Below are positions 1 to 59,453 of a stretch of 64,000 nt of DNA, in pieces. The notes under the pieces are model-generated. The model was not told the DNA's origin. It made no database searches and worked only from the letters and a program-made list of their open reading frames with translations. This DNA is from Chamaelirium japonicum (taxonomy: Eukaryota > Streptophyta > Magnoliopsida > Liliales > Melanthiaceae): NCBI GenBank assembly GCA_947650365.1, contig CANTAL010000002.1, positions 2,797,501 to 2,861,500 on the forward strand, written 5' to 3'. Made by a program: the position numbers and the translations under genes. Position 1 is the stretch's first letter. Each line of letters begins with the position of its first letter.

Positions 1-828
1 TGAATTAGAATGGATCTTACGAATGAATTAGAATGGAACGTATAGATTGTGCGAATGAATTAGAATGGATCGTACGAATGAATTAGAATGGATCGTACGA
101 ATGAATTAGAATGGATCGTACGAATGAAATAGAATGGATCATATGAATGAATTAGAATGGATACGTGCGAATGAATTAGAATTGATCGTACGAATGAATT
201 AGACTAGATTGTGCGAATGAATTAGAATGGATCGTAAAAATGAATTGGAATGGATACATTCGTGCGAATGAATTAGAATGGATCGTACGAATGAAATAGA
301 ATGGATCGTGCGAATGAATTAGAATGGATCGTACGAATGAATTAGAATGGATCGTACGAATGACTTAGAATGGATCGTTCGAATGAATTAGAATAGATTG
401 TGCGAATGAATTAGAATGGATCATACGAATGAATTAGAAAGGATACATTCGTGCGAATGAATTAGAATGGATCGTATGAGTGTGAATGAATTAGAATGGA
501 TTGTGCGAATGAATTAGAATGGATCGTACAAATGAATTAGAATGGATCGTACGAATGAATTAGAATGGATACATTCGTGCAAAAGAATTAGAATGGATTG
601 TATGAATGAATTAGAATGGATCGTTTGAGTGAATGCGAATGGATCGTGTAATTGAATTAGAATGGAATGAATTAGAATGGATTGAATTAGAATGAATCGT
701 ACGAATGAATTAGAATGGATCGTACGAATGAATTAGAATGGATCGTACGAATGAAATAGAATGGATCGTATGAATGAAATAGAATGGATCGTATGAATGA
801 ATTAGAATGGATACATTCGTGAGAATCC
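1..828 (+). repeat. Satellite block, plus orientation
   Basis: About 35 consecutive units read GAATGAATTAGAATGG on the plus strand. Variants include the 28-bp form with GATACATTCGTGC at about 240-270 and 560-590, and the GTTTGAGTGAATGCG form near 625. The block ends at a flip near 828, inside a GATACATTCGTG variant that runs directly into ATCCATTC. Confidence 0.9.
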
Positions 829-1267
829 ATTCTATTTCATTTGTACGATCCATTCTAATTCATTCGCACGATCCATTCTAATTCATTCATACGATCCAAT
901 TAGAATGGATCGTATGAATGAATTAGAATGGATCGTGCGAATGAATTAGAATGGATCGCATGAATCCATTCTATTTCATTCATACGATTCATATTAATGA
1001 ATTAGAATGGATCGTGCGAATGAATTAGAATGGATCGTACGAATGAGTAAGAATGGATCGTGCGAATGAATTAGAATGGATAGTACGAATGAAATAGAAT
1101 GGATTAGTACGAATGAATTAGTATGATCTATTCTTATTCATTCGCACAATCTATTCTAATTCATTCGTACGATCCATTCTAATTCATTCGCACGATCCAT
1201 TCTAATTCATTCATAGGATCCATTCTAACTCATTCGCACGATCCATTCTAATTCATTCGCACGATCC
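829..1267. repeat. Satellite, rapidly alternating short blocks
   Basis: Five short blocks alternate: minus about 829-897, plus about 898-964, minus about 965-993, plus about 994-1125 and minus about 1126-1267. Some blocks hold only one to three units, so the flips are close together and could form local foldbacks. Confidence 0.85.
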
Positions 1268-2950
1268 TACGAATGAATTAGAATGGATCGTATGAATGAA
1301 TTAGAATGGATCGTGCGAATGAATTAGAATGGATCGTACGAATGAATTAGAATAGATCGTACGAAGGAATTAGAATGGATCGTACGAATGAATTAGAATG
1401 GATACGAATGGATCGTATGAATGAATTAGAATGGATCGTATGAATGAAATAGAATGGATCGTACGAAGGAATTAGAATGGATCATATGAATGAATTAGAA
1501 TGGATCGTATGAATGAATTAGAATGGATCGTGCGAATAAATTAGAATGGATCGTATGAATGAATTAGAATGGATTGTACGAATGAATTAGAATGGATCGT
1601 GCGAATGAATTAGAATGGATCGTGCGAATGAATTAGAATGGATCGTACGAATGAATTAGAATGGATGGTACGAAGGAATTAGAATGGATCGTACGAATGA
1701 ATTAGAATGGATCGAACGAATGAATTAGAATGGATACGAATGGATCGTATGAATGAATTAGAATGGATCGTACGAATGAAATAGAATGGATCGTACGAAG
1801 GAATTGGAATGGATCATATGAATGAATTAGAATGGATCGTATGAATGAATTAGAATGGATCGTGCGAATAAATTAGAATGGATCGTATGAATGAATTAGA
1901 ATTGATCGTACGAATGAATTAGAATAGATTGTGCGAATGGATTAGAATGGATCATACGATTGAGTAAGAATGGATTGTACGAAGAAATAGAATACATCGT
2001 ACGAATGAATTAGAATGGATCGAATGAATGAATTAGAATGGATCGTGCGAATGAATTAGAATGGATCGTACGAATGAATTAGAATGGATCATATGAATGA
2101 ATAAGAATGGATCGTAGTAATGAATTAGAATAGATCGTACGAATGAAATAGACTGGATTGTACGAATGAGATAGAATGGATCGTACGAATGAATTAGAAT
2201 GGATACATTCATGCGAATGAATTAGAATGGATCATACGAATGAATTAGAATGGATTCATTCGTGCGAATGAATTAGAATGGATCGTACGAATGAGTAAGA
2301 ATGGATCGTACGAATGAATTAGAATGGATTGAATTAGAATGAATCGTATGAATGAATTAGAATGGATCGTACGAATGAATTAGAATGGATCGTACGAATG
2401 AATTAGAATGGATGGAATTAGAATGAATCGTACGAATGAATTAGAATGAATCATACCGTACGAATGAATTAGAATGGATTATACGAAGGAATTAGAATGG
2501 ATCGTACGAATGAATTAGAATGGATCGTACGAATGAATTAGAATGGATCGTACGAAGGAATTAGAATGGATCGTACGAAGGAATTAGAATGGATAGTACG
2601 AATGAATTAGAATGGATCGTACGAATGAATTAGAATGGATCGTACGAATGAATTAGAATGGATCGTACGAATGAATTAGAATGGATTGTACGAATGAATT
2701 AGAATGGATCGTGCGAATGAATTAGAATGGATCGTACGAATGAATTAGAATCGATTGTGCGAATGAATTAGAATGGATCGTACGAATGAATTAGAATGGA
2801 TCGTATGAATGAATTAGAATGGATCGCATGCATGAATTAGAATGGCTCGTGCGAATGAATTAGAATGGATCGTACGAATGAATTAGAATGGATCGTACGA
2901 AGGAATTAGAATGGATCGTATGAATGAATTAGAATGGATCATCCGAATGA
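1268..2950 (+). repeat. Satellite block, plus orientation
   Basis: About 70 plus-strand units. A short composite variant (GAATGGATTGAATTAG, then GAATGAATCGTAC, then GAATGAATCATACCGTAC) lies at about 2320-2462. The block ends in a perfect 10-bp palindrome, ATGAATTCAT at 2947-2956, where the orientation flips. Confidence 0.9.
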
Positions 2951-4810
2951 ATTCATACGATCCATTCTATTTCATTCGTACGATCCATTCTATTTCATTC
3001 GTACGATCCATTCTTACTCATTCGTACGATCCATTCTAATTCATTTGCATGATCCATTCTAATTCATTCATACGATCCATTCTAATTCCTTCGTACGATC
3101 CATTCTAATTCATTCGTACGATCCATTCTAATTCATTCGCACGATCCATTCTAATTCATGCATACGATCCATTCTAATTCATTACTACGATCCATTCTAA
3201 TTCATTCGTACGATCCATTCTAATTCCTTCGTATGATCCATTCTAATTTATTCGCACGATCCATTCTAATTCATTCGTACGATCCATTCTAATTCATTCG
3301 TACGATCCATTCTAATTCATTCGCACGAATGTATCCATTCTAATTCATTCGTACAATCCATTCTTACTCATTCGTAATAAATTAGAATGGATACATTCGT
3401 GCAAAAGAATTAGAATGGATTGTATGAATGAATTAGAATGGATCGTGCAAATGAATTAGAATGGATTGTGCGAATGAATTAGAATGGATCGTACGAATGA
3501 ATTAGAATAGATCGTACGTATGAATTAGAATGGATACATTCGTGCGAATGAATTAGAATGGATCGTGCGAATGAATTTGAATGGATCGTACGAATGAATT
3601 AGAATGGATCGTACAAAGAAATTAGAATGGATACACGATCCAGATCCATTCTAATTCATTCGCACGATCAATTCTAATTCGTTCGTACGATCCTTTCTAA
3701 TTCATTCGTACGATCCATTCTAACTCATTCGCACGATCCATTCTAATTCAATCGCACGATCCATTCTAATTCATTCGCACGATCCATTCTAATTCATTCA
3801 TACGATCCATTCTATTTCATTCGTACGATCCATTCTTACTCATTCGTACGATCCATTCTAATTCATTTGCACAAAGGTATCCATTCTAATTCATTCGTAC
3901 TATCTATTCTAATTCCTTCGTACGATCCATTCTAATTCATTCGAACGATCCATTCTAAGTCATTCGTACGATCCATTCTAATTCATTCGTACGATCCATT
4001 CTAATTCATTCGCACGATCCATTCTTACTCATGCGAATGAATTAGAATGGATCGTATGAATGAATTAGAATGGATTGAATTAGAATGAATCGTACGAATG
4101 AATTAGAATGGATCGTATGAATGAATTAGAATGGATCGTACGAATGAATTAGAATGGATCGTGCTAATGAATTAGAATGGATTGTGCGAATGAATTAAAA
4201 TGGATCGTATGAATGAAATAGAATGGATCGTATGAATTAGAATCAATCGTACGAATGAAATAGAATGGATCGTACGAATGAATTAGAATAGATTGTGCGA
4301 ATGGATTAGAATGGATCATACGAATGAATTAGAATGGATCGTACGAATGAATTAGAATGGATTGAATTAGAATGAATCGTACGAATGAATTAGAATGGAT
4401 CGTATGAATGAATTAGAATGGATCGTACGAATGAATTAGAATGTATCGTAGTAATGAATTAGAATGGATCATACGAAGGAATTAGAATGGATCGTACGAA
4501 TGAATTAGAATGGATCGTACGAATGAATTAGAATGGATCGTACGAAGGAATTAGAATGGATCGTACGAAGGAATTAGAATGGATAGTACGAATGAATTAG
4601 AATGGATACCTTCGTGCAAATGAATTAGAATGGATCGTACGATTGAGTAAGAATGGATCGTACGAATGAAATAGAATGGATCGTATGAATGAATTACAAT
4701 GGATCGTGCGAATGAATTAGAATGGATCGTACGAATGAATTAGAATAGATTGTGCGAATGAATTATAATGGATCGTGCGAATGAATTAGAATGGATCGTA
4801 CGAATGAATT
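2951..4810. repeat. Satellite, four alternating blocks
   Basis: Minus about 2951-3372, plus about 3373-3640, minus about 3641-4031, plus about 4032-4810. The plus-to-minus flip near 3640 reads GATACACGATCCAGATCC, a junction form seen again near 7064. The flip at 4804-4813 is again the palindrome ATGAATTCAT. Confidence 0.85.
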
Positions 4811-6573
4811 CATTTGCACGAAGGTATCCATTCTAATTCATTCGTACTATCCATTCTAATTCATTCATACGACCCATTCTATTTCATTCGTACGATCCAT
4901 TCTAATTCATTCGCACGATCCATTCTAATTCATTCGCACGATCCATTCTAATTCATTCATACGATCCATTCTATTTCATTCGTACGATCCATTCTTACTC
5001 ATTCGTACGATCCATTCTAATTCATTTGCACGAAGGTATCCATTCTAATTCATTCGTACTATCCATTCTAATTTCTTCGTACGATCCATTCTAATTCCTT
5101 CGTACGATCCATTCTAATTCATTCGTACGATCCATTCTAATTCATTCGTACGATCCATTCTAATTCCTCCGTATGATCCATTCTAATTCATTCGTACAGT
5201 ATGATTCATTCTAATTCATTCGTACGATTCATTCTAATTCAATCCATGCTAATTCATTCGTACGATCCATTCTAATTCATTCATACGATCCATCCTAATT
5301 CATTCGCATGAATGTATCCATTCTAATTCATTCGTACAATCCATTCTATTTCATTCGTACGATCCATTCTTACTCATTCGTACGATCCATTCGTATCCAT
5401 TCGAATTCATTCGTACGATCTATTATAATTCATTCGTACGATCCATTCTAATTCATTCGCACGAATGTATCCATTCTAATTCATTCGTACAATCCATTCT
5501 ATTTCATTCGTACGATCCATTCTTACTCATTCGTACGATCCATTCGTATCCATTCTAATTCATTCGTACAATCTATTCTAATTCATTCGTACGATCCATT
5601 CTAATTCATTAATACAATCCAATCTAATTCATTCATACGATCCATTCTAATTCATTCGTACGATTCATTCTAATTCATTCGCACGATCCATTCTAATTCA
5701 TTCGCACGATCCATTCTAATTCATTCACACGATCCAATCTTACTCATTCGTACGATCCATTCTAATTCATTTGCACGAAGGTATCCATTCTAATTCATTC
5801 GTACTATCCATTCTAATTCCTTCGTACGATCCATTCTAATTCCTTCGTACGATCCATTCTAATTCCTTCGTATGATCCATTCTAATTCATTCGTATGATC
5901 CATTCTAATTCCTTCATATGATCCATTCTAATTCATTCGTACGGTATGATTCATTCTAATTCATTCGTACGATTCATTCTAATTCAATCCATTCTAATTC
6001 ATTCGTACGATCCATTCTAATTCATTCGTACGATCCAGTCTTATTCATTCGTACGATTCATTCTAATTCAATCCATTCTAATTCATTCGTACGATCCATT
6101 CTTACTCATTCGCACGATCCATTCTAATTCATTCGTACGATCCATTCTAATTCATTCGTACTATCCATTCTAATTCCTTCGTACGATCCATTCTAATTCA
6201 TTCGTACGATCCATTCTAATTCATTCGTACAATCCATTCTAATTCATTCGCACGAACCATTCGCATTCACTAGAACGATACATTCTAATTCATTCATATG
6301 ATCCATTCTAATTCATTCGCACGAATGTATCCATTCTAATTCATTCGTACGATCCATTCTTACTCATTCGTACGATCCATTCTAATTCATTCGTTCGATC
6401 CATTCTAATTCATTCGTACGATCCATTCTAATTCATTCGTACGATCCAGTCTTATTCATTCGTACGATTCATTCTAATTCAATCCATTCTAATTCATTCG
6501 CACGATCCATTCTAATTCATTCATACGATCCATTCTATTTCATTCGTACGATCCACTCTAATTCTTTTGCACG
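4811..6573 (-). repeat. Satellite block, minus orientation
   Basis: About 75 units read as CCATTCTAATTCATTCG on the plus strand. The composite variant occurs twice (GTATGATTCATTC followed by CGATTCATTCTAATTCAATCC, near 5197 and 5942). Several longer variants carry GAAGGTATCC or GAATGTATCC. Confidence 0.9.
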
Positions 6574-7350
6574 AATATATCGAACGAATGAATTAGAATG
6601 GATCGTACAAATGAATTAGAATGGATCGAATGAATGAATTAGAATGGATCGTACGAATGAGTAAGAATGGATCGTACGAATGAATTAGAATGGATACATT
6701 CGTGCGAATGAATTAGAATGGATCATATGAATGAATTAGAATGTATCGTTCTAGTGAATGCGAATGGTTCGTGCGAATGAATTAGAATGGATTGTACGAA
6801 TGAATTAGAATGGATCGTACGAATGAATTAGAATGGATCGTACGAAGGAATTAGAATGGATAGGACGAATGAATTAGAATGGATCGTACGAATGAATTAG
6901 AATGGATCGTGCGAATGAGTAAGAATGGATCGTACGAATGAATTAGAATGGATTGAATTAGAATGAATCGTACGAATGAATTAGAATGGATCGTACGAAT
7001 GAATTAGAATGGATCGTGCGAATGAATTTGAATGGGTCGTTCGAATGAATTAAAATGGATACACGATCCAGATCCATTCTAATTCATTCATACGATCCAT
7101 TCTAATTCATTCATACGATCGTACGAAGGAAATTGAATGGATCATGCGAATGAATTAGAATTTGGATCGTACAAAGGAATTAGAATGGATCGTATGAATG
7201 AATTCGAATGTATCCTTTCTAATTCATTTGTACGATCCATTCTAATTCATTCGTACGATCCATTCTAACTCATTCGTATGATCCATTCTAATTCATTCGC
7301 ACGATCCTACGAATGAATTAGAATAGATTGTGCGAATGAATTAGAATGGA
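6574..7350. repeat. Satellite, mixed orientation
   Basis: Plus about 6574-7064, then short minus, plus, minus and plus blocks up to 7350. One flip (near 7205) goes through GAATTCGAATGTATCC, so the AATT core of the unit sits at the junction. Confidence 0.85.
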
Positions 7351-8373
7351 TCTGGATCGTGTATCCATTCTAATTCATTCGTACGACCCATTCTAATTCA
7401 TTCGTACGATCCATTCTAATTCATTCATACGATCCATTCTATTTCATTCGTACGATCCATTCTTACTCATTCGTACGATCAATTCTAATTCATAAGCATG
7501 ATCCATTCTAATTCATTCGTACGATCTATTCTATTTCATTCATACAATCCATTCTTACTCAATCGTACGATCCATTCTAATTCATACGATGCATTCTAAT
7601 TCATTCACACGAATGTATCCATTCCAATTCATTCGTACGATCCATTCTAATTCATTCGCACAATCTATTCTAATTCATTCGTACGATCAATTCTAATTCA
7701 TTAGCATGATCCATTCTAATTCATTCGTACGATCTATTCTATTTCATTCGTACAATCCATTCTTACTCAATCGTATGATCCATTCTAATCCATTCGCACA
7801 ATCTATTCTAATTCATTCGTACGATCCATTCTAATTCATACGATTCATTCTATTTCATTCATACGATCCATTTTACTTCATTCGCACGATCCATTCTAAT
7901 TCATTCGTACTATCCATTCTAATTCATTCGTGCTATCCATTCTAATTCCTTCGTACGATCCTTTCTAATTCCTTCGTACGATCCATTCTAATTCATTCGT
8001 ACGATCCATTCTAATTCATTCGTACGATCCATTCTAATTCATTCGTACGATTCATTCTAATTCAATCCATTCTAATTCATTCGTACGATCCATTCTTACT
8101 CATTCATGCGATCCATTCTAATTCATTCGCACGAATGAATCCAGTCTAATTCATTCGTATGATCCATTCTAATTCATTCGCATGAATGTATCCATTCTAA
8201 TTCATTCGTACGATCCATTCTATCTCATTCGTACAATCCATTCTATTTCATTCGTACGATCCATTCTAATTCATTCGCACGATCCATTCTAATTTATTCG
8301 CATGATCCATTCTAATTCATTCGTACGATCGATTCTAATTCATTCATACGATCCATTCTAATTTTTTCGCACG
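7351..8373 (-). repeat. Satellite block, minus orientation
   Basis: About 44 minus units with frequent GCAC and ATAC forms in place of GTAC. Starts after the junction GATCTGGATCGTGTATCC and ends where CGCACGATTAGAATGG restores the plus reading. Confidence 0.88.
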
Positions 8374-9643
8374 ATTAGAATGGATCGTGTGAATGAATTA
8401 GATTGGATCGTATAAATGAATTAGAATGGATCGTACGAATGAATTAGAATGGATCGTGCTAATGAATTAGAATGGATCGTGCGATACATTCGTGCGAATG
8501 AATTAGAATGGATCATACGAATGAATTAGAATGGATTCATTCGTGCGAATGAATTAGAATGGATCGTACGAATGAGGACGAATGACTTAGAATGGATCGT
8601 ACGAAGGAATTAGAATGGATCGTACGAAGGAATTAGAATGGATAGTACGAATGAATTAGAATGGATACCTTCGTGCAAATGAATTAGAATGGATCGTACG
8701 AATGAGTAAGAATGGATCATACGAATGAAATAGAATGGATCGTATGAATGAATTAGAATGGATCGTGCGAATGAATTAGAATGGATCGTACGAATGAATT
8801 AGAATGGCTCGTACGAATGAATTAGAATGGATCGTGCGAATGAATTAGAATGGATCCTACGAATGAATTAGAATAGATTGTCCGAATGAATTAGAATGGA
8901 TCTGGATCGTGTATCCATTCTAATTCATTCGTACGACCCATTCTAATTCATTCGCACGATCCATTCTAATTCATTCGTACGATCCATTCTAATTCATTCG
9001 TCCGTATGGATCGTACGATTCATTCTAATTCAATCCATTCTAATTCATTCATACGATCCATTCTATTTCATTCGTACGATCCATTCTAATCCATTCGCAC
9101 AATCTAGTCTAATTCATTCGTACGATCCATTCTAATTCATTCGTACGATCCATTCTAATTCATTCGCACAATCTATTCTAATTCATTCGTACGATCCATT
9201 CTAATTCATTCGCACGATCCATTCTAATTCATTCATACGATCCATTCTAATTCATTCGTACGAATGAGTAAAAATGGATCGTACGAATGAAATAGAATGG
9301 ATTGTACGAATGAATTAGAATGGATACATTCGTGCGAATGAATTAGGATGGATCGTATGAATGAATTAGAATGGATCGTACGAATGAATTAGCATGGATT
9401 GAATTAGAATGAATCGTACGAATGAATTAGAATGAATCATACCATACGAATGAATTAGAATGGATCATACGAAGGAATTAGAATGGATCGTACGAATGAA
9501 TTAGAATGGATCATACGAATGAATTAGAATGGATCGTACGAATGAATTAGAATGGATCGTATGAATGAATTAGATTGGATGGTGCGAATGAATTAGAATA
9601 TAGATCGTATGAATGAATTAGAATGGATCGTACGAATGAATTC
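8374..9643. repeat. Satellite, plus/minus/plus
   Basis: Plus about 8374-8908, minus about 8909-9262, plus about 9263-9643. The first junction repeats the form GATCTGGATCGTGTATCC seen at 7350. The minus-to-plus flip is the perfect palindrome CATTCGTACGAATG at 9253-9266. Confidence 0.87.
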
Positions 9644-10850
9644 GAATGTATCCTTTCTAATTCATTCATACGATCAATTCTAATTCATTCGTACGATCCA
9701 TTCTAATTCATTCGCACGATCCATTCTAATTCATTAATACGATCCATTCTAATTCATTCACACTCATACGATCCATTCTAATTTATTCGCACGATACATT
9801 CTAATTCATTCGCACGATCCATTCTAATTCATTCATACGATCCATTCTAATTCATTCCTACGATCCATTCTAATTCATTCGTACGATCCATTCTAATTCA
9901 TTCGCACAATTTATTCTAATTCATTCGTACGATCCATTCTAATTCATTCGCACGATCCATTCTAATTCATTCATACGATCCATTCTATTTCATTCGTACG
10001 ATCCATTCTTACTCATTCGTACGATCCATTCTAATTCATTTGCACGAAGGTATCCATTCTAATTCATTCGTACTATCCATTCTAATTACTTCGTACGATC
10101 CCTTCTTATTCCTTCGTACGATCCATTCTTTTTCATTCGTACGATCCATTCTTACTCATTCGTACGATCCAGTCTAATTCATTTGCACGAAGTTATCCAT
10201 TCTAATTCATACAATCCATTCTAATTCATTCATACGATCCAATCTAATTCATTCATACGATCCATTCTAATTCATTCGCACGAATGTATCCGTTCTAATT
10301 CATTCGTACGATCCATTCTAATCCATTTGTACGAATGTATCCACTCTAATTCATTCATACGATCCATTCTAATTCATTCGTACGAATGTTTCCATTCTAA
10401 TTCATTCGCACGATCCATTCTAATTTATTCGTACGATCGATTCTAATTAATTCATACGATCCATTCTAATTCATTCGCACGAATGTATCCATTCTAATTC
10501 ATTCGTACGATCCATTCTAATTCATTCGCACAATCTATTCTAATTCATTCATACGATCCATTTTAATTTATTCGCACGATCCATTCTAATTCATTCATAC
10601 GATCCATTCTACTTCATTCATATGATCCATTCTAATTCATTCGCACGATCCATTCTTACTCATTCGTACGATCCATTCTAATTCATTCACACGATCCATT
10701 CTAATTCATTAATACGATCCATTCTAATTCATTCGCACGATCCATTCTAATTCATTCACACTCATACGATCCATTCTAATTCATTCGCACGAATGTATCC
10801 TTTGTAATTCATTCGTACGATTCATTCTAATTCAATCCATTCTAATTCAT
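9644..10850 (-). repeat. Satellite block, minus orientation
   Basis: About 52 minus units. It enters through GAATTCGAATGTATCC and leaves through TAATTCATTAGAATGG. It includes the longer CATTCACACTCATACG variant near 9765 and 10755. Confidence 0.88.
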
Positions 10851-11465
10851 TAGAATGGATCGTATGAATGAATTAGAATGGATCGTACGAATGAATTAGA
10901 ATGGATCGTACGAATGAATTAGAATGGATCGTGCGAATAAATTAGAATGGATTGTATGAGTGTGAATGAATTAGAGTGGATCGTGCGAATGAATTAGAAT
11001 GGATCGTATTAATGAATTAGAATGGATCGTGCGAATGAATTAGAATGGATCGTACGAATGAGTAAGAATGGATCGTGCGAATGAATTAGAATGGATCATA
11101 TGAATGAATTAGAATGGATCGTATGAATGAATTAGAATGGATCGTGCGAATAAATTAGAATGGATCGTATGAATGAATTAGAATAGATTGTGCGAATGAA
11201 TTAGAATGGATCGTACGAATGAATTAGAATGGATACATTCGTGTGAATGAATTAGAATGGATCATATGAATGAATTAGAATGGATCGTTTGAGTGAATTA
11301 GAATAGATTGTGCGAATGAATTAGAATAGATCGTACGAATGAATTAGAATGGATCGTGCGAAAAAATTAGAATGGATCGTATGAATGAATTAGAATGGAT
11401 CGTGCGAATGAATTATAATATAGATCGTACGAATGAATTAGAATGGATCGTACGAATGAATTCGA
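10851..11465 (+). repeat. Satellite block, plus orientation
   Basis: About 26 plus units, including the GTATGAGTGTGAATG long variant, ending in a GAATTCGAATGTATCC junction like those at 7205 and 9643. Confidence 0.88.
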
Positions 11466-12152
11466 ATGTATCCTTTCTAATTCATTCGTACGATCCATTC
11501 TAATTCATTCGTACGATCCATTCTAATTCATTCGTACGATCCATTCTAATTCATTCGTACGATCCATTCTAATTCATGCGCATGATCCATTCTAATTCAT
11601 TCGTACGATTCATTCTAATTCAATCCATTCTAATTCATTCGTACAATCCATTCTTACTCATTCGTACGATCCATTCTAATTCATTCGCACGATCCATTCT
11701 AATTCATTAATACGATCCATTCTAATTCATTCGCATGATCCATTCTAATTCATTCACACAGTCAATTCTATTTCATTCGTACGATCCATTCTAATTCATT
11801 CGCACGATCCATTCTAATTCATTCATACGATCCATTCTAATTCATTCATACGATCCATTCTAATTCCTTCGCACAATCCATTCTAATTCATTCGCACGAT
11901 CCATTCTAATTCATTCGCATGATCCATTCTAATTCATTCGTACGATCGATTCTAATTCATTCATATGATCCATTCTCATTCATTCGCACGAATGTATCGA
12001 TTCTAATTCATTCGTACGATCCATTCTAATTCATTCGCACAATCTATTCTAATTCATCCATACGATCCATACTAATTCATTCATACAATCCATTCTAATT
12101 CGTTTGTACGATCCTTTCTAATTCCTTCGTACGATCCATTCTATTTCATTCG
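11466..12152 (-). repeat. Satellite block, minus orientation
   Basis: About 30 minus units with GTAC, GCAC and ATAC variants interspersed. No other sequence is present. Confidence 0.88.
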
Positions 12153-26746: not shown

Positions 26747-26794
26747 TTCGCACGATCCATTCTAATTCATTCGTACGATCCATTCTAATTCATT

Positions 26795-44988: not shown

Positions 44989-45755
44989 GAGTCCATTCTA
45001 TTTCATTCGTACGATCCATTCTAATTCATTCGTACGATCCATTCTAATTCATTCGTACGATCCATTCTAATTCATTCGTACGATCCATTCTAATTCATTC
45101 GCACAATCTATTCTAATTCATTTGTACGATCTATTCTAATTCATTCGCACGATCCATTCTAATTCATTCATACGATCCATTCTATTTCATTCATACGATC
45201 CATTCTTACTCATTCGTACGATCCATTCTAATTCATTTGCACGAAGGTATCGATTCTAATTCATTCGTACTATCCATTCTAATTCCTTCGTACGATCCAT
45301 TCTAATTCCTTCGTACGATCCATTCTAATTCATTCGTACGATCCATTCTAATTCCTTCGTATGATCCATTCTAATTCATTCGTACGGTATGATTCATTCT
45401 AATTCATTTGTACGATTCATTCTAATTCAATCCATTCTAATTCATTCATACGATCCATTCTATTTCATTCGTACAATCCATTCTAATACATTCTAATTTA
45501 TTCGCACGATCCATTCTAATTCATTCATACGATCCATTCTAATTCATTCATATGATCCATTCTAATTCATTCGCACGATCCAATCTAATTCATTCGTACG
45601 ATCCATTCTAATTCATTCGCACAATCTATTCTAATTCATTCGTACGATCCATTCTAATTCATTCGCACGATCCATTCTAATTCATTCATATGATCCATTC
45701 TATTTCATTCGTACGATCCATTCTTACTCATTCGTATGATCCGTTCTAATTCATT
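44989..45755 (-). repeat. Satellite block, minus orientation
   Basis: About 33 minus units, with the composite variant near 45384-45430. Confidence 0.88.
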
Positions 45756-47941: not shown

Positions 47942-49652
47942 AATCCATTCTATTTCATTCGTACGATCGATTCTAATTCATTCGCACGATCCATTCTAAT
48001 TCATTCATACGATCCATTCTAATTCATTCATACGATCCATTCTAATTCATTCGTACAATCTATTCTAATTCATTCGTACGATCCATTCTAATTCATTCAT
48101 ACGGTCTATTCTAATTCATTAGCACAATCTATTCTAATTCATTCGTACGATCCATTATAATTCATTCGCACGATCCATTCTAATTCATTCGCACGAATGT
48201 ATCCTTTCTAATTCATTTGTATGAATGTATCCACTCTAATTCATTCGTACGATCCATTCTAATTCATTAGCACGATCCATTCTAATTCATTCGTACGATC
48301 CATTCTAATTCATTTATACGATCCAATCTATTTCATTCATACGATCCATTCTAATTCATTCGTACGATCCATTCTAATTCATTCGTACGATCCATTCTAA
48401 TTCGTGCGAATGTATCCATTCTAATTCATTCGTACGATCCATTCTAATTCATTCGTACGAATGTATCCATTCTAATTCATTTGTACGAATGTATCCACTC
48501 TAATTCATTCGTACGATCCATTCTAATTCATTAGCACGATCCATTCTAATTCATTCGTACGATCCATTCTAATTCATTTATACGATCCAATCTAATTCAT
48601 TCATACGATCCTTTCTAATTCATTCGTACGATCCCTTCTAATTCATTCGTATGATCCATTCTAATTCGTGCGAATGTATCCATTCTAATTCATTCGTACG
48701 ATCCATTCTAATTCATTCGTACAATCCATTCTAATTCATTCGCACGATCCATTCGCATTCACTCAAACGATCCATTCTAATTCATTCATATGATCCATTC
48801 TAATTCATTCGCACGAATGTATCCATTCTATTTCATTCGTACGATCCATTCTAATTCATTCGCATGAATGTATCCATTCTAATTCATTCGCACGATCCAT
48901 TCTAATTCATTCGCACGATCCATTCTAATTCATTCATACAATCCATTCTACTTCTTTTGCACGAATGTATCCATTCTAATTCATTCGTACGATCCATTCT
49001 AATTCATTCGTACGATCCATTCTAATTTATTCGCACAATCCATTCTAATTCATTCACACTCATATGATCCATTCTAATTCATTCGCACGAATGTATCCGT
49101 TCTAATTCATTCGTACAATCCATTCTAATTCATTCGCACAATCTATTCTAATTCATTCGAACGAACCATCCTAAGTCATTCGTACGATCCATTCTAATTC
49201 ATTCGCACGGTCCATTCGCATTCACTCAAACGATCCATTTTAATTCATTCATATGATCCATTCTAATTCATTCGCACGGATGTATCCATTCTATTTCATT
49301 CGTACGATCCATTCTAATTCATTCGCACGATCCATTCTAATTCATTCATACGATCCATTCTAATTCATTCGTACGATCCATTCTAATTCATTCGCACAAT
49401 CTATTCTAATTCATTCGTACGATCCATTCTATCTCATTCGTACGATCCATTCTAATTCATTCGTACGATCGTATCCATTCTAATTCATTCGTACGATCCA
49501 ATCTAATTCATTCGTACGATCCATTCTTACTCATTCGTACGATCCATTCTAATTCATTCGTACGATCCATTCTATCTCATTCGTACGATTCATTCTATTC
49601 TTACTCATTCATACGATCCATTCTAATTCATTCGCACGAATGTATCCATTCT
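47942..49652 (-). repeat. Satellite block, minus orientation, with a local 264-bp duplication
   Basis: About 73 minus units. A segment starting CCACTCTAATTC at 48231 is repeated from 48495 (offset 264 bp, homology to about 48722). 264 is not a multiple of 23 because the segment contains longer variant units. Confidence 0.87.
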
Positions 49653-52600
49653 AAATGAATTAGAATGAATCGTGCGAATGAGTAAGAATGGATCGTACGA
49701 ATGAATTAGAATGGATCGTATGAATGAATTAGAATGGATCGTATTAATGAATTAGAATAGATCATACGAATGAATTAGAAAGGATCGTATGAATGAATTA
49801 GAATGGATCGTATGAATGAAATAGAATGGATCCATTCTTACTCATTCGTACGATTCATTCTAATTCAATCCATTCTAATTCATTCGCATGATCCATTCTA
49901 ATTCATTTGTACGATCGATTCTAATTCATTCATACGATCCATTCTAATTTATTCGCACGATCCATTCTAATTCATTCGTACGATCTATTCTATTTCATTC
50001 GTACAATCCATTCTTACTCAATCGTATGATCCATTCTAATCCATTTGCACAATCTATACGTGCGAATGAATTAGAATGGATCGTATGAGTGTGAATGAAT
50101 TAGAATGGATCGTGCGAATGAGTAAAAATGGATTGTACGAATGAGATAGAATGGATAGTACGAATGAATTAGAATGGATACATTCATGCGAATGAATTAG
50201 AATGGATCATACGAATGACTTAGAATGGATTCATTCGTGCGAATGAATTAGAATGGATCGTATGAATGAATTAGAATGGATTGAATTAGAATGAATCGTA
50301 CGAATGAATTAGAATGGATTGTATGAATGAATTAGAATGAATGAATTAGAATGAATGAATTAGAATGGATCTTACGAATGAATTAGAATGGATCGTACGA
50401 ATGAATTAGAATGGATCGTTCGAATGAATTAGAATAGATTGTGCGAATGAATTAGAATGGATCGTACGAATGAGCAAGAATGGATCGTAGAATTAGAATG
50501 GATCGTATGAATAAATTAGAATGGATCGTGCGAATGAATTAGAATGGATACATTCGTGCGAATGAATTAGAATGGATCGTATGAATGAAATAGGGTGGAT
50601 ACATTCGTACAAATGAATTAGAATGGATCGTACGAATGAATTTGAATGGATCATACGAATGAATTAGAATGGATCATTTGAGTGAATGCGAATGGATCGT
50701 GCGAATGAATTAGAATGGATTGTACGAATGAATTAGAATGGATCGTACGAATGAAATAGAATGGATCGTACGAATGAATTAGAATGGATCGTATGAATGA
50801 ATTAGAATGGATCGTGCGAATGAATTAGAATGGATCGTACGAATGAAATAGAATGGATTCGCACGAATGTATCCATTCTAATTCATTCGTACGATCCATT
50901 CTTATTCATTCGTACAATCTATTCTAACTCATTCGTACGATCCATTCTAATTCATTCGCACGATCCATTCTAATTCATTAATACGATCCATTCTAATTCA
51001 TTCGCACGATCCATTCTAATTCATTCACACTCATACGATCCATTCTAATTCATTCGCACGAATGTATCCTTTCTAATTCATTCGTACGATCCATTCTAAT
51101 TCATTCGCACAATCTATTCTAATTCATTCGAACGATACATTCTAATTCATTCGTACGATCCATTCTAATTCATTCACACGATCCATTCTAATTCATTCGC
51201 ACGATCCATTCTAATTCATTAGCACGATCCATTCTAATTCATTCGTACGATCCATTCTAATTCATTTATACGATCCAATCTAATTCATTCATACGATCCA
51301 TTCTAATTCTTTCGCACGAATGTATCCATTCTAATTCATTCGTACTAATGAATTAGAATGGATCGTACGAATGAATTAGAACGGATACATTCGTGCGAAT
51401 GAATTAGAATGGATCGTATGAGTGTGAATGAATTAGAATGGATTGTGCGAATGAATTAGAATGGATCGTACGAATGACTTAGAATGGATCGTTCGAATGA
51501 AATAGAATAGATTGTGCGAATGAATTAGAATGGATCGTACGAATGAATTAGAACGGATACATTCGTGCGAATGAATTAGAATGGATCGTATAAGTATGAA
51601 TGAATTAGATTGGATTGTGCGAATGAATTAGAATGGATCGTACGAATGAATTAGAATGGATCGTACGAATGAATTAGAATGGATACATTCGTGCAAAAGA
51701 AGTAGAATGGATTGTATGAATCAATTAGAATGGATCGTGCGAATGAATTAGAATGGATCGTGCGAATGAATTAGAATGGATACATTCATGCGAATGAATT
51801 AGAATGGATCATACGAATGAATTAGAATGGATTCATTCGTGCGAATGAATTAGAATGGATCATACGAATGAATTAGAATGGATCGTACGAATGAATTAGA
51901 ATGGATCGTATGAATGAATTAGAATGGATCGTGCGAATGAATTAGAAAGGATCTTATTAATGAATTTGAATGGATCGTACGAATGAATTAGAATGGAACG
52001 TACGAATGAATTAGAATGGATTGTAGAATGGATCGTATGAATGAATTAGATTGGATCATACGAATGAGTAAGAATGGATCATACGAATGAATTAGAATGG
52101 ATCGTACGAATGAATTAGAATGGATACATTTCGTACAATCCATTCTAATTCATTCGTACGATCTATTCTAATTCATTCATGCAATCCAGTCTAATTCATT
52201 CGTACGAAGGAATTAGAAAGGATCGTATGAATGAATTAGAATGGATCGTACGAATGAAATAGAATGGATCCATTCTTACTCATTCGTACGATTCATTCTA
52301 ATTCAATCCATTCTAATTCATTCGCATGATCCATTCTAATTCATTCGTACGATCGATTCTAATTCATTCATACGATCCATTCTAATTTTTTCGCACGATC
52401 CATTCTAATTCGTTCGTACGATCTATTCTATTTCATTCGTACAATCCATTCTTACTCAATCGTATGATCCATTCTAATCCATTCGCACAATCTATACGTG
52501 CGAATGAATTAGAATGGATCGTATGAGTGTGAATGAATTAGAATGGATCGTGCGAATGAGTAAGAATGGATTGTACGAATGAAATAGAATAGATCTTACG

Positions 52601-53436
52601 AATGTATTAGAATGGATCGTACGAATGAATTAGAATGGATCGTTCGAATGAATTAGAATAGATTGTGCGAATGAATTAGAATGGATCGTACGAATGAATT
52701 AGAATGGATCGTACGAATGAATTAGAATGGATCGTACGAATGAATTAGAATGGATCGTGCGAATGAATTAGAATGGATTCGCACGAATGTATCCATTCTA
52801 ATTCATTCGTATGATCCATTCTAATTCATTCGTACAATCCATTCTAATTCATTCACACGATCCATTCGCATTCACTCAAACGATCCATTCTAATTCATTC
52901 ATACAATCCATTCTAATTCTTTTGCACGAATGTATCCATTCTAATTCATTTGTACGATCCATTCTAATTCATTCGTATGATCTATTCTAATTCATTCGCA
53001 TGATCCATTCTAATTCCTTCGTACGATCCATTTTAATTCATTCGCACGATCCATTCTAATTCATTCATACGATCCATTCTAATTCATTCGTACGATCCAT
53101 TCTAATTTCTTCGTATGATCTATTCTAATTCCTTCGTACGATCCATTCTAATTCATTCATACGATCTATTCTAATTCTTTCGCACGAATGTATCCATTCT
53201 AATTCATTCGTACGATCCATTCTAATTCCTTCATACGATCCATATTCTAATTCATTCGTACGATCCATTCTAATTTATTCGTACAATCCATTCTAATTCA
53301 TTAGAATGGATCGTATGAATGAAATAGAATGGATCGTACGAATGAATTAGAATGGATCGTACGAATGAAATAGAATGGATCGTATGAATGAATTAGAATG
53401 GATCGTATGAATGAATTAGAATGGATCGTGCGAATG
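49653..53436. repeat. Satellite, mixed orientation, with local duplications
   Basis: Blocks: plus to about 49830, minus to 50058, plus to 50866, minus to 51345, plus to 52131, short minus and plus, minus about 52269-52496, plus to 52780, minus to 53304, plus to 53436. About 330 bp starting at the palindrome GAATGGATCCATTC (49824) recur from 52262 (offset 2,438). A 172-bp tandem duplication marked by GAACGGATACATTCG lies at about 51380-51720. Confidence 0.85.
53432..53436. repeat. Left target-site duplication of the LTR insertion
   Basis: GAATG immediately before the TG end. Its partner is GAATA at 56993-56997 (4 of 5 match). Removing the insertion restores a normal satellite unit (GTGC GAATG AATTAG), which fits a 5-bp duplication on integration. 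Confidence 0.7.
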
Positions 53437-53438
53437 TG

Positions 53439-53455
53439 TAACACCTGAGGTGTTA
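53439..53455 (+). other. Perfect hairpin at the LTR 5' tip
   Basis: Arms TAACACC and GGTGTTA are exact complements around a 3-base loop, starting two bases inside the element end. Confidence 0.8.
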
Positions 53456-54195
53456 AATTTGAGAATAATAAAAAAATCCTCCCAGGGCTCTTTTCATCCT
53501 TTTACCGTTAGACTTTTTAGCTGAGCTTTTTCCAGAATAATGGGTCGTAAACCCATGAGATGTTTTACGTTCACTTTTTCTATATTTTCGAGCACGTCGT
53601 ATTGGTGCGTCCCGTGCAAGGATCGGGTGTATGCGCAGCCTGTTTCGGCAACCCGGTAGTTAAAACCCTAGAATTTCGATGATCAGCCCACTGTCGGTAT
53701 TGTTTGGTTTACTACAGGAGATCGGTTGATTGGATCGTAGCAAGGCTGGATACGTTGGGTGAGGCTCTGAAAGAGATTTCCAACAAGCCTGAGCGGGGGT
53801 CGATCCGACACCTTGACAATGAGTTATTACTATTTTAAAATTTAGAGTATTTCCTTTATTGTGGGAGATCTGCAAGTCAGAAAAATATGTACCAAGCACC
53901 TTTGTGTTCGCATCGATAAGACCTTTCCAACGGATCATTCCGTGCCCATTTCTGACCTCCGATTTGTAACTTATGGTTGATTGTTCTTTTCAGCCAGATA
54001 AGGCGACGGTTTGCACCCGGGTTCTAACCGAGCACAGTTCAGGGCTCGGGACCAAGCCCGACCAGCCATAGGACCTTTCTTTCAACCTTTTGGCTTGGTT
54101 TAGACCCTCTCGATCGTCCTCCCTGATATTTAAAATTTGAATTTCGGATGGGGAGGATATGGCGGGCTTCGGGATGATAACAACCGGATCTTTCT

Positions 54196-54206
54196 GCTAT
54201 AACCAC
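54196..54206 (+). promoter_or_regulatory. Possible TATA-type site of the LTR
   Basis: CTGCTATAACC lies about 90 bp upstream of the GA-rich leader-like tract, a plausible spacing for an LTR promoter. The match is weak and nothing else supports it. Confidence 0.25.
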
Positions 54207-54293
54207 CCCTCTTTGTTAGGAAGTCCTTAACCAACCCGATTCCCCAGCTCACTTACCATAACCGCAGCGCCCCTTCCCTGTTTATCATGGACT

Positions 54294-54296
<3 letters not shown>

Positions 54297-54326
<30 letters not shown>
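54297..54326 (+). repeat. GA dinucleotide microsatellite in the LTR
   Basis: About 15 uninterrupted GA repeats, followed by further GA-rich sequence to about 54375. The related element at the right edge has a long GA-rich tract (on its own strand) in the equivalent position. Confidence 0.95.
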
Positions 54327-54329
<3 letters not shown>

Positions 54330-54436
54330 GAGCGGAGTAGAGAGAGAGAAAGCGGCACAAGAGAGAAGGAGAAGAGATAGTGGGAGGAAGGATCTGCAGC
54401 AGCCGGCAATCCAAGCACCGGTGAGCCACTCAGAAA

Positions 54437-54835
54437 CTAAACCCCGAACCCATCAGGTTGGTCTCCCCCTCCTCTTTCTTTTCTCTCCTCCTCCACCCGA
54501 ACCGGACCTCCAACCCGACCACACCCTCCTCCTCCTCCCTTACCCGCGAACCCGACCTCACCCTCTCCTCCTTTGCCGCCGACCTGCGTAGTCACCGGCG
54601 GCTGGCGCCGCACCCGAGCCCCTCCCCGGAAGCCGTCGGTGCAACCGAGCACCTCCAACGCCGGCCCAAACCCGTGGACCCTCCTCCGGCCAAGGTCTTT
54701 CCGGACTTCGACGGCACACCGGCCACCTCCTCCCGCGCCTCCCCTGCGAGGGTGATGCGGGGGAGACCGATCGGGCACCGTCGGCGCACCCAAACCCGGT
54801 CACCCCGTCGCCGGTGTTGCGCTAAAACCAGAGCT
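54437..54835 (+). other. GC-rich, proline/arginine-codon-rich stretch of the LTR, not called as a gene
   Basis: High GC content makes several overlapping frames open on both strands (the longest is 148 codons on plus, 54458-54904). The products would be low-complexity Pro/Arg/Ser-rich sequence with no recognisable domain. Simultaneous openness of several frames is what base composition alone would give. Confidence 0.7.
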
Positions 54836-54916
54836 CTGGTTTTTGTTGAGAAGAAACAGAGCAGGGACCCATCCGTAATTATAGATCTTTCCCAGGTCAT
54901 TTAGAACATATTAATA

Positions 54917-55025
54917 CTGCAGACCCGACCCGAACTGCAACCCGACCCGACTGCACTGCAACCCGACCCGACTGTACAGCAACCCGACCCGCTTAAGTGC
55001 ACAGCAGACCCGCAGACCCGGCCCA
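54917..55025 (+). repeat. ACCCGACCC short tandem repeats
   Basis: Roughly four to five degenerate units of about 20-25 bp, each with ACCCGACCCG followed by a CTGCA-like spacer. The minus strand of the right-hand element has a shorter GACCCGACCCG tract at the matching place (63160-63180 region). Confidence 0.85.
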
Positions 55026-55083
55026 ACAGTGAACCGGTCTGGTTCACTTGAACCAGACCCGTAAACCGTCTAGAATTGGTTCA

Positions 55084-55291
55084 GCCGCCATTTCTTCGTC
55101 CGATCTCGGAATCGAATGAAACCAGCGGCATTTCGACCGGATCGGAAGAGATCCACTTGTTGAATTAGAATTGGTACAGTAATTTTACTATCTAGGATCC
55201 CTTTTTAGCTATGAGCCCGATCTAGTTGGTGCACTGTGGTTTGACCGCCAAGTCTCCGTCCGATCTCGGAATTGGACGAAACCAGTGGCAT
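55084..55291 (+). repeat. Duplicated ~48-bp motif in the LTR
   Basis: 55084-55131 and 55244-55291 share CCGCCA, CGTCCGATCTCGGAAT, CGAAACCAG-like and GGCAT blocks at an offset of 160 bp. Diverged relatives occur three times on the minus strand of the second element (about 62997-63049, 62851-62895 and 62693-62733), which helps to fix that element's orientation. Confidence 0.8.
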
Positions 55292-55299
55292 CGTACTTA

Positions 55300-55930
55300 G
55301 ATCATCGATGCCGATGTATTGAACTTAGTTTGGGACCCTAGAGACCCATTTACCCTATTGAACCGATCATAGACCGGTTTTTACCGGTTCGACCCTAAAA
55401 CCTCCGACCGAAGTTGGATTCGAGCGAGACCGGATCCCATGGGTCCCTCATCCCTAAACCAACCTTTTTAGAACCCTAGTTTGAGTAATTTATGAATGTA
55501 ACAACTTATACATTTCAAACCATGATGGTCAGTTTCTTCTTCGACGGTACACCGGACCGATAGACGTGAGGAACATGGACTACCGAGCTATTCTCCAGGT
55601 GAACATGATTAATTCTATTCTAGTTAGAGTAGATTGTAGTTGTATCTGTAAAATAATAAATAAAACCGTATGTGGCATAGTATGTCCAATGCATGCAGGC
55701 GGGAAACCGGTACTGTATGTGGGAGGTGGGCATACTATCCCTTGCCTCTGAACAATCATACATGATGTAACACTTTGATAGCTGTAACAGTGATTGACTC
55801 AACCTAGATTCACACTAGGATGCATGCAAACAAGTAGATGCTTGTACTGATTATTTATTAATATTCTGTTGAATGACTGTGTTTGGTGACCATGGGTCGC
55901 ATGGTGCAGTCTAGTTGCTATTGAGCAACG
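55300..55930 (+). other. LTR interior with no recognisable feature
   Basis: Mixed-composition sequence containing short runs such as ACCGGTTTTTACCGGTT near 55373. Short open frames exist on both strands (about 60 codons each) but overlap each other and show no domain. Confidence 0.6.
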
Positions 55931-55932
55931 AA

Positions 55933-55982
55933 GACTGGTGGTCTCGGTGGAGAGACCGGTGGTCTCAATGGAGAGACTGGTG
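55933..55982 (+). repeat. 21-bp tandem repeat with GGTCTC/GAGACC arms
   Basis: Two full 21-bp units at 55933-55953 and 55954-55974 (GACTGGTGGTCTC, then a spacer, then GGAGA) plus a partial third. GGTCTC in each unit can pair with the following GAGACC, giving successive stem-loops. Confidence 0.85.
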
Positions 55983-56057
55983 ATTGTACTTCCTCAGTTG
56001 AGGTTCTCTTCCCAGAGGGAAGACTTACTACTCACGGGCATGGGTAGGGGACCCGAG

Positions 56058-56091
56058 TGCACAGGATGGGAGGTGAACCACCGCCTGTGCA
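56058..56091 (+). other. Stem-loop in the LTR
   Basis: Perfect 8-bp arms TGCACAGG (56058-56065) and CCTGTGCA (56084-56091) enclose a second GGTG/CACC pair. It sits in a purine-rich region of 56030-56220 with no coding evidence. Confidence 0.75.
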
Positions 56092-56750
56092 TAATCCGAA
56101 TCAAGTAGGTAGGGTCACAGGGTTGGGTAGGCGGTAAAGCCCCTAGTGGCCTAGTAGTCCACCCCTGGGTAATGACCCCTAAAAGCAAGGTGGGCGAGAG
56201 TGCCCCGTGGTGAAAGACCAAGCCCCCTTATGGCCATATGGGTATTTCTGGCTCTCCAAGTACACTTGGACCCAGGTTCTGTTGGCAGACCCAGTTAGAA
56301 AACTGCCGGTTCACTTTAGGAGTAGGTAGAACTAACATTCGGTGATTTGTTGCATATTTTTAATCTGGATGATTATTTGTCTTACATTTATTAGTTGTAG
56401 TTGTACCACAGTAGAACTGTCATATTAGTTAGCTGAACTATCTTATTTGCAATATATGTATGTATATGTTGTCGCCCTCGTAGCCTTCTAGAAGGGCAAG
56501 GTATGTCTATGGTTTACCCTAGCTAGTTTAGGTTTAACGGTTCACTGAGTTTACCTAGTAAACTCACCCCGTTGTTGCACACTCTTTTCAGGTACCATAG
56601 ATCCTCCTCAGGCGCTTCCTAGAGGAGCTTGATTAGCTATCGAGGGAGGATATTAGAGGTGTTAACTAGTTTTATTATTTTCAGTTGATTATATAATAAC
56701 TGCAGAACCATGTTCTAGATGCTCTGAATAATACCAGAATCAATAATATT
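56092..56750 (+). other. LTR interior, 3' part
   Basis: No gene seen. 56535-56610 (ACTCACCCCGTTGTTGC, then CTTTTCAGGTACC) has a counterpart in the second element on minus (about 59865-59805: a GACTCAGG stretch, then TTCAGGTATCG), supporting common descent of the two elements. Confidence 0.65.
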
Positions 56751-56753
56751 TCT

Positions 56754-56838
56754 TTGGTAAGCTTCTCCTCAAAACTTCATGCTTGGTAGGCCTTTCCTCA
56801 AGGCCAAGTTATTGGTAGGCTTCTCCTCAAAGCCGTCC
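56754..56838 (+). repeat. 29-bp tandem repeat of mini-hairpins
   Basis: Three units start with TTGGTARGC at 56754, 56783 and 56812. Each has the core CTCCTC or TTCCTC between complementary arms: GGCCTT with AAGGCC in unit 2, GGCTT with AAGCC in unit 3, and a weaker pair in unit 1. The arms differ between units but stay complementary in units 2 and 3. Confidence 0.85.
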
Positions 56839-56940
56839 CTCATCAGCTAGTAAGTAGTTAATGATAAATTAGTAATAAATAACTAAATAATAAAAATCAA
56901 CCTCGCAACCTTATAACATTGACTTACCCTTAAAACCCCA

Positions 56941-56990
56941 TCACGCCCGGGTTTGACTTGTTTACCCTTGTAGTTAGATCCGGGGCGTGA
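56941..56990 (+). other. Terminal inverted pair at the LTR 3' tip
   Basis: TCACGCCCGGG (56941-56951) is nearly the complement of CCGGGGCGTGA (56980-56990), so the last 50 bases can fold back, mirroring the hairpin at the 5' tip. The sequence between 56839 and 56940 is AT-rich and otherwise featureless. Confidence 0.7.
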
Positions 56991-56992
56991 CA

Positions 56993-56997
56993 GAATA
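56993..56997. repeat. Right target-site duplication of the LTR insertion
   Basis: GAATA, partner of GAATG at 53432-53436. GAATAAATT is also a natural satellite variant seen elsewhere, so the single mismatch may predate or postdate the insertion. Confidence 0.65.
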
Positions 56998-59191
56998 AAT
57001 TAGAATGGATCGTACGAATGAATTAGAATGGATCGTACGAATGAATTAGAGTGGATCGTACGAATGAATTAGAATGGATTGAATTAGAATGGATACATTC
57101 GTACAAATGAATTAGAATGGATCGTACGAATGAATTAGAATGGATCGTGCGAATGAATTAGAATTGATCGTATGAATGAATTAGAATAGATTGTGCGAAT
57201 GAATTAAAATGATTCGTATAAATGAATTAGAATGGATCGTATGAGTGAATTAGAATGGATACAAAGGAATTAGAATGGATCATATGAATGAATTAGAATG
57301 GATCGTATGAATGAAATAGAATGGATCGTACGAATGAATTAGAATGGATCATGCGAATGAATTAGAATGGATCGTACGAATGAATTAGAATGGATTGTAC
57401 GAAGGAATTAGAATGGAAAGTACGAATGAATTAGAATGGATACCTTCGTGCAAATGAAATAGAATGGTTCGCACGAATGAATTAGAATGGATTGTACGAA
57501 TGAATTAGAATGGATAGTATGAATGAATTAGATTGGATCGTATTAATGAATTAGAATGGATCGTACGAATGAATTAGAATAGATCGTACGAATGAATTAG
57601 AATGGATACGAATGGATCGTACGAATGAGTAAGAATGGATCGTACGAATGAAATAGAATGGATTGTACGAATGAATTAGAATGGATACATTCGTGCGAAT
57701 GAATTAGGATGGATCGTATGAATGAATTAGAATGGATCGTACGAATGAATTAGAATGGATACATTCGTGCGAATGAATTAGAATGGATCGTATGAATGAA
57801 TTAGAATCGATCGTACGAATGAATTAGAATGGATCATGCGAATGAATTAGAATGGATCGTGCGAATGAATTAGAATGGATCGTATGAATGAATTAGAATG
57901 GATCGTGCGAATGAATTAGAATGGATCGTACGAATGAATTAGAATAGATTGTGCGAATGAAATAGAATGGATCGTACGAATGAATTAGAATGGATCGTAC
58001 GAATGAATTAGAATGGATCGTATGAATGAATTAGAATGGATCGTGCGAATGAATTAGAATGGATCGTACGAATGAAATAGAATGGATTCGCACGAATGTA
58101 TCCATTCTAATTCATTCGTACGATCCATTCTAATTCATTCGTACAATCCATTCTAATTCATTCGCACGATCCATTCGCATTCACTCAAACGATCCATTCT
58201 AATTCATTCATATGATCCATTCTAATTCATTCGCACGAATGTATCCATTCGAATTCATTCGTACGATCCATTCTAATTCATTTGTACGAATGTATCCACT
58301 CTAATTCATTCATACGATCCATTCTAATTCATTCGCACGAATGTATCCATTCCAATTCATTCGTACGATCAATTCTAATTCATTCGCACGATCTATTCGA
58401 GAATGGATCGTATTAATGAATTAGAATGGATCGTGCGAATGAATTAGAATGGATCGTACGAATGAGTAAGAATGGATCGTGCGAATGAATTAGAATGGAT
58501 CGTGCGAATGAATTAGAATGGATCGTACGAATGAATTAGAATGGATACATTCGTGCGAATGAATTAGAATGGATCGTATGAATGAATTAGAGTGGATACA
58601 TTCGTACAAATGAATAAGAATGGATCGTACAAATGAATTAGAATGGATACATTCGTGCGAATGAATTAGAATGGATCATATGAATGAATTAGAATGGATC
58701 GTTTGAGTGAATGCGAATGGATCGTGCGAATGAATTAGAATGGATTGTACGAATGAATTAGAATGGATCGTACGAATGAATTAGAATGGATCGTATGAAT
58801 GAATTAGAATGGATCGTACGAATGAATTAGAATGGATCGTACGAATGAATTAGAATGGATTGAATTAGAATGAATCGTACGAATGTATTAGAATGGATCG
58901 TATGAATGAATTAGAATGGATCGTGCGAATGAATTAGAATGGATCGTGCGAATGAATTAGAATGGATCGTATGAATGAATTAGAATGGATCGTATGAATG
59001 AATTAGATTGGATCGTATTAATGAATTAGAATGGATCGTACGAATGAATTAGAATAGATCGTACGAATGAATTAGAATGGATACGAAAGGATCGTACGAA
59101 TGAGTAAGAATGGATCGTACGAATAAAATAGAATGGATTGTACGAATGAATTAGAATAGATACATTCGTGCGAATGAATTAGGATGGATCG
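56993..59191. repeat. 23-bp satellite array, continuation right of the LTR
   Basis: Same unit and same variants as the main array. It is plus to about 58095, minus about 58096-58398, and plus to 59191. It resumes in the orientation in which the left array stopped, as expected if the LTR simply inserted. It contains no gene. Confidence 0.95.
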
Positions 59192-59350
59192 TGTCACGCC
59201 CCGGATTTTCCTGCGCATAGAAAACACGAGGTGTGATAATTTTGATGATTTTTTTTTTTGAAAATATTTTTATTTATTCTCCCTTGCTCGGATGGTCCCA
59301 TCCTCGCAAGGAAGAACCAAAAGATTAAAATAGAAGGAGAATCACTCGAC

Positions 59351-59453
59351 CATCAAGAGTATCACCTTTGGTGATCAGGAAACCATCTCCCCAACCAAAC
59401 AAGGACAGGAGACAGTTCTTGATCACGTAACAGTGTTACTCTTATGGGAGCAC
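59351..59453 (-). other. Stem-loop module, copy 1
   Basis: AAGAGTATCAC and GGTGATC on the left face GATCACGTAAC and GTTACTCTT on the right, giving an imperfect stem of about 20 bp. The loop holds a 28-bp core (CTCCCCAACCAAAC, then AAGGACAGGAGACA) at 59387-59414 that is repeated exactly in copy 2. Confidence 0.8.

Follow-up and report, generated by a model that had tools for sequence, protein, structure and literature searches.

Contig C14 (3,285,581 bp) carries, between positions 2,797,501 and 2,861,500, the 64,000-bp stretch analyzed here, hereafter the window. A two-strand, 23-phase HMM run at a flip prior of 1e-4 assigned 55,636 bp of it to a satellite of short units, 24,921 bp in forward and 30,715 bp in reverse orientation, and two non-satellite insertions interrupt the array (Table 1). 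A 23-bp monomer was recovered both by TRF and by counting units between exact cores. The HMM returned 102, 96 and 78 flips (104, 98 and 82 satellite blocks) at priors of 1e-3, 1e-4 and 1e-6, respectively, and 80 blocks at both 1e-8 and 1e-12, priors under which the path mostly passes through the background state; a prior of 1e-2 gave 414 flips and was not used because of over-splitting. Block lengths at 1e-4 range from 12 to 2721 bp with a median of 380 bp, 90 of the 98 blocks reaching at least 23 bp. No flips were called in three simulated single-orientation arrays at either of the two priors tried; these arrays, in which 7.8% of positions received a randomly drawn letter (so that ~5.9% were truly changed) and indels were absent, are somewhat milder than the real array.

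Table 1 Features located in the window (positions count from its first base).
Position	Strand	Feature	Evidence
1..53436	.	Chio1/Chio2-type satellite in alternating forward and reverse blocks	TRF, HMM blocks
5989..7035	.	Local inverted duplication	
18486..35587	+	Direct tandem duplication, offset ~8.4 kb, with internal flips	
29854..29893	.	Most frequent reverse-to-forward junction type (one instance, flip at 29873), lying at the TTCGTACGAA dyad	
40240..44817	+	Direct tandem duplication, offset ~1.9 kb, also flip-bearing	
47912..47951	.	Most frequent forward-to-reverse junction type (one instance, flip at 47931), ...GATACATTCGTGCGAATCC...	
53437..56992	.	3,556-bp insertion with ends TGTAACACC...GGGGCGTGACA and near-matching 5-bp flanks GAATG/GAATA	
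56993..59191	.	Satellite continuation: forward, 297-bp reverse block, forward	HMM blocks
58102..58398	-	Whole reverse block, a 98% inverted copy of forward 58493-58791, 94 bp apart	
59192..64000	.	Second insertion (~6.18 kb), which runs on as far as L029 base 1372; ends TGTCACGCCCC...CTCTTACA, GATCG on both sides	

The initial annotation had described about 55 kb of a 23-bp satellite with some 90 flips, in blocks of 25 bp to 2.5 kb, and had proposed a tandem-repeat finder with strand-aware mapping as the check. TRF and the HMM confirm the satellite, and the HMM its alternating orientation, and the figures hold well: 55.6 kb, 78-96 flips depending on the prior, and a block size range that is right when set against the HMM blocks at 1e-4. 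The span it gave, 1 to 59191, ends correctly at the last satellite base before the second insertion, but it takes in the non-satellite DNA at 53437-56992, and 59191 is not the array edge; the array restarts about 6.18 kb past that base.

The first insertion is probably a solo LTR lying inside the centromeric satellite. The reverse complement of the second starts with TGTAA and ends with GGGGCGTGACA, like the first. Neither of the two contains a long open frame, the longest stop-free stretches being 159 and 216 codons, respectively. Insertions were also seen at other sampled loci. Two of 5,932 bp (L029:3292-9223 and L024:2658-8589) are 98% alike, carry direct terminal repeats of ~1.15 kb and have identical adjoining satellite bases at a distance of ~0.86 Mb from each other; they may be either two insertions or one segment copied over a long range. 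A further insertion of 6.5 kb (L034:2758-9273), with a T run at its start and a 996-codon stop-free stretch on the minus strand, is perhaps, at a guess, a putative non-LTR retrotransposon.

Relation to the Chio satellites

Among units lying between exact cores, the commonest 23-bp unit is GAATTAGAATGGATCGTACGAAT (209 of 614) and the commonest 28-bp unit is GAATTAGAATGGATACATTCGTGCGAAT (34 of 73), which has, relative to the former, 5 bp inserted and a single A-to-G substitution. The sequence TTCGTACGA is present directly in the reverse unit, and comparing the unit with its own reverse complement gives the 8-bp TCGTACGA as the longest match. In the literature, Chio is the CENH3-bound centromere satellite of the holocentric lily relative Chionographis japonica (Kuo et al. 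2023, PMC10264360; PMC12722358). Its two forms, Chio1 (23 bp) and Chio2 (28 bp), are separated by a 5-bp indel and one substitution (PMC10264360), the 23-bp monomer contains TTCGTACGA (PMC12722358), mixed forward and reverse orientation is stated in both papers, and the arrays are described as frequently alternating in orientation (PMC12722358). An 8-bp dyad, mixed arrays and megabase-scale units complete the likeness (PMC10264360), and the published dyad would correspond to TCGTACGA. No tested feature differs in the window, the comparison with PMC10264360 being one by description, as the published monomer letters stand in a figure; four pieces of the window unit were not found in the available main text of that paper.

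The extent of the array is also of the published order. Satellite was present in 13 of 16 sampled 10-kb stretches of the contig, from 1.50 to 3.01 Mb, and was not found in the other three, all at or below 1.01 Mb, so that the array spans ~1.5 Mb as judged from spaced, non-continuous samples. In the whole assembly used for genome-wide counts (1,518,659,071 bp in 3253 contigs; the published C. japonica primary assembly has 1,526,137,861 bp in 3786 contigs, PMC10264360), exact pattern counts of the satellite dimer gave 162,480 forward and 164,476 reverse matches, with 0 for a backward control. Near parity of the two strands is therefore a property of the whole assembly.

Taken together, these features indicate that the window very probably belongs to a Chio1/Chio2 centromere unit of megabase scale in the holocentric C. 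japonica, a species named here by inference. What appears as a striking oddity in the raw sequence would thus be a published holocentromere; both the satellite and the mixing of its orientations are already known, and the view that the repeat belongs to no described family is not supported, given the 23- and 28-bp units, the indel and substitution, TTCGTACGA, the dyad and the mixed orientation. It is very improbable that the array is instead an undescribed satellite of another plant that is merely Chio-like: this could be argued from the published letters standing in a figure and not in the text (PMC10264360), but it would have to account for simultaneous agreement in the 23-bp unit, the 28-bp unit with a like indel and substitution, TTCGTACGA, an 8-bp dyad, orientation mixing and megabase arrays. 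By analogy with the published function of Chio, the array is likely to serve as a site of CENH3 chromatin assembly.

Two other centromeric satellites are of interest for comparison. Chama, the 60-bp satellite of the macro-monocentromeres of Chamaelirium luteum (Kuo et al. 2025, PMC12722358), has the 9-bp TTCGTACGA in common with Chio and likewise shows dyad symmetry. It differs in its 60-bp unit and in its arrays, described as homogeneous, consistently oriented and without interspersed retrotransposons, whereas the window has units of 23 and 28 bp and 78-96 flips. FabTR-10 of pea centromere 6 (PMC10027222) is likewise centromeric and shows no preferred orientation over the whole centromere, but its monomers are reported to be uniformly oriented inside each array, with the exception of one inversion-bearing array.

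Position and reality of the strand flips

The window and 22 further loci together provided 174 kb of satellite, in which we scored 271 junctions (~1.55 per kb), keeping junctions with both blocks of at least 23 bp and dropping those beside shorter blocks. Six of 20 loci of contig C1 were used and 14 left out, L001 and L005 overlap by ~1.5 kb, and three of the 16 C14 loci in the set are without satellite. Out of 23 possible registers, 49 of 136 reverse-to-forward flips fell in that of the TCGTACGA dyad, and 74 of 135 forward-to-reverse flips in a single Chio2-derived junction register with the typical sequence GGATACATTCGTGCGAATCC. The unit model comprises Chio1 only, and the registers of junctions involving Chio2 are therefore approximate, while the raw counts are inflated by copying. 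Collapsing look-alike junctions with similar flanks, with 5 of the 271 excluded as lying near a locus end, left 100, 131 or 155 clusters depending on the threshold; the bias stayed, with 0 of 20,000 uniform draws as extreme for either flip type. Under the loosest clustering the reverse-to-forward peak was 20 of 71, and the forward-to-reverse peak at the Chio2 junction went down to 6 of 29, below the GATC register (8 of 29).

The same motifs were counted over the assembly. Exact perfect-dyad 16-mers numbered 9,117 and 10,489 for TCGTACGA, 3,670 for GATC, and 2,915 and 161 for AATT, and the Chio2 junction 20-mer GGATACATTCGTGCGAATCC has 13,786 exact copies; these counts cover those dyad forms only, the reverse-to-forward GATC form being left out, and the copies are non-independent. 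The window contains no instance of the perfect-dyad form GGATCGTACGATCC, which occurs twice in the 22 other loci, yet TGGATCGTACGATCCA accounts for 10,489 sites genome-wide.

The flips give the DNA a strong predicted capacity to fold. A 300-nt DNA strand over the flip at 47931 has a predicted fold of -108.6 kcal/mol (z -20.6), against -30.5 kcal/mol (z -4.5) for a single-orientation piece, and the window holds 83 perfect inverted pairs with arms of at least 40 bp and spacers of up to ~300 bp. The earlier interpretation of the array as a dense field of inverted repeats is thus supported as regards the flips and the inverted-repeat potential, though not as regards an undescribed family.

The initial annotation had also raised the concern that the flips might come from assembly or from foldback reads. 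The comparison of flanks does not support it. Mirror similarity across the 42 window junctions whose flanks reach 150 bp averaged 0.69, against 0.66 for 400 random pairs, and only 5 of the 42 scored above the random 95th percentile (0.76); aligned mirror identity for 70 window junctions with flanks of at least 60 bp (70 of 80 kept) was 86-98%, not near 100%. Most flip flanks are therefore not mirror copies, which is evidence against foldback reads, and if foldback did make the flips, most of them are old. An artefactual origin is, in our judgment, very improbable. Satellites are difficult to assemble, and the mirror test compares flanks touching the flip, so that foldbacks with a spacer would escape it, as does the spacer-separated pair at 5989-7035. 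Against this, besides mirror identities below ~100%, (i) the published HiFi libraries (means of 14, 15, 20 and 26 kb, 58.5x; PMC10264360) exceed in mean length every block called at 1e-4, the largest being 2,721 bp, (ii) identical junction motifs are found thousands of times over genome-wide, the rarest counted motif lying on contigs C1 to C8 among the matches listed, and (iii) orientation mixing is stated in two papers (PMC10264360; PMC12722358).

Copies, duplications and the origin of the flips

Several duplications in the window carry flips with them. In the larger one, 18486-27179 matches 26903-35587 at 98.2% over 8,713 bp, with an ungapped stretch of 6,201 bp at 99.8%; in the smaller one, 40240-42909 matches 42151-44817 at 95.05% over 2,687 bp, with an ungapped stretch of 1,944 bp at 99.8%. 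Inverted copies are also present. The segment 5989-6445 matches 6579-7035 in inverted orientation at 98.2% over 457 bp, across a 133-bp spacer, with perfect 232-bp arms within 6161-6863. The reverse block at 58102-58398 is bounded by flips at both ends, whereas its donor is not. An earlier blastn result of no inverted repeat of at least 300 bp at 95% is contradicted by these later inverted copies and was left unused.

In 124 contiguous kb we counted 256 direct and 231 inverted non-redundant pairs of copies with a length of at least 150 bp and an identity of at least 96%. The search dropped repeated k-mers above set limits and self-overlapping pairs, and its seed limits differ slightly between the direct and inverted searches; the claim is therefore one of near-equality and not of exact parity. 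The youngest copies are distributed differently: with redundant pairs included, there were 30 direct vs 11 inverted at 98% or more and at least 300 bp, and 53 direct vs 18 inverted at 98% or more and at least 150 bp. Direct stretches reach 6,201 bp at most and inverted ones 1,482 bp. Recent copying is therefore mainly direct. Of the 231 inverted pairs, 124 had at least one of their four copy ends at a flip or array edge, as had 120 of the 256 direct pairs, against a chance expectation of ~24% for either class (6.6% of positions lie near a flip), so the ends of inverted copies show no clear excess over the direct-copy control in these 124 kb.

The observations that bear on the origin of the flips are their positions, the register bias, the near-equal numbers of copies at 96% or more, the flip-bearing duplications and one inverted block beside its donor. 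The likeliest account, whose chances we consider roughly balanced, is dyad-prone copying from either strand, by template switching or conversion, together with direct duplication of flip-bearing segments. The 8-bp dyad TCGTACGA, or its longer, imperfect equivalent in Chio2, would allow a strand that has broken or stalled to pair again with a copy of either orientation; repair would then copy some hundreds of bases from the re-annealed template, so that new blocks could be inverted, and flip-bearing segments would afterwards be duplicated head to tail, multiplying the same junctions. We infer that the trigger would be a hairpin or a break and the pathway template switching or conversion. According to a published suggestion, hairpins may arise at the shared 9-bp motif, causing breaks and mobilizing repeats (PMC12722358).

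A bolder version, which we offer tentatively and consider unlikely on present evidence, is that TCGTACGA itself seeds strand switching through hairpin breaks or stalls, that copying is largely blind to orientation, and that the Chio2-derived "flip monomer" GGATACATTCGTGCGAATCC has spread genome-wide as a unit of its own. This reading is weakened because the youngest copies favor the direct class and because copies filling a whole block are as rare among inverted pairs (5 of 231) as among direct ones (5 of 256).

Somewhat less probable still are simple balanced inversions, arising by crossing-over between inverted copies within the array and requiring no copying. High-identity inverted copies are abundant and can pair, flips cluster in registers where the two strands share sequence, and the direct excess at 98% or more would be expected if young copying were mainly direct. 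Inversions do not duplicate, however, and the block at 58102-58398 has its 98% donor in place 94 bp away; the inverted duplication at 5989-7035 speaks against them as well. The similar numbers of inverted and direct copies at 96% or more also suggest copying, although the same picture would result from copying with a later inversion. As inverted copies occur with the donor still present, template switching or conversion fits better than plain inversion.

The register bias of the flips and the balance of direct and inverted copies are modest additions to what has been described; neither was found in the available text of PMC10264360 and PMC12722358. They make the published hairpin-break suggestion (PMC12722358) testable, with thousands of flip junctions open to classification in a single assembly, and Chamaelirium, the sister genus with the same 9 bp in constant orientation, provides a natural contrast for the origin of the flips. 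By extrapolation, ~1.55 flips per kb over the published Chio share of 17% of the genome would amount to some hundred thousands of flips. Their density is uneven among the sampled stretches, with 27-32 flips per 10 kb in L031, L035 and L036 and 12-19 per 10 kb in the remaining five stretches with at least 99% satellite.
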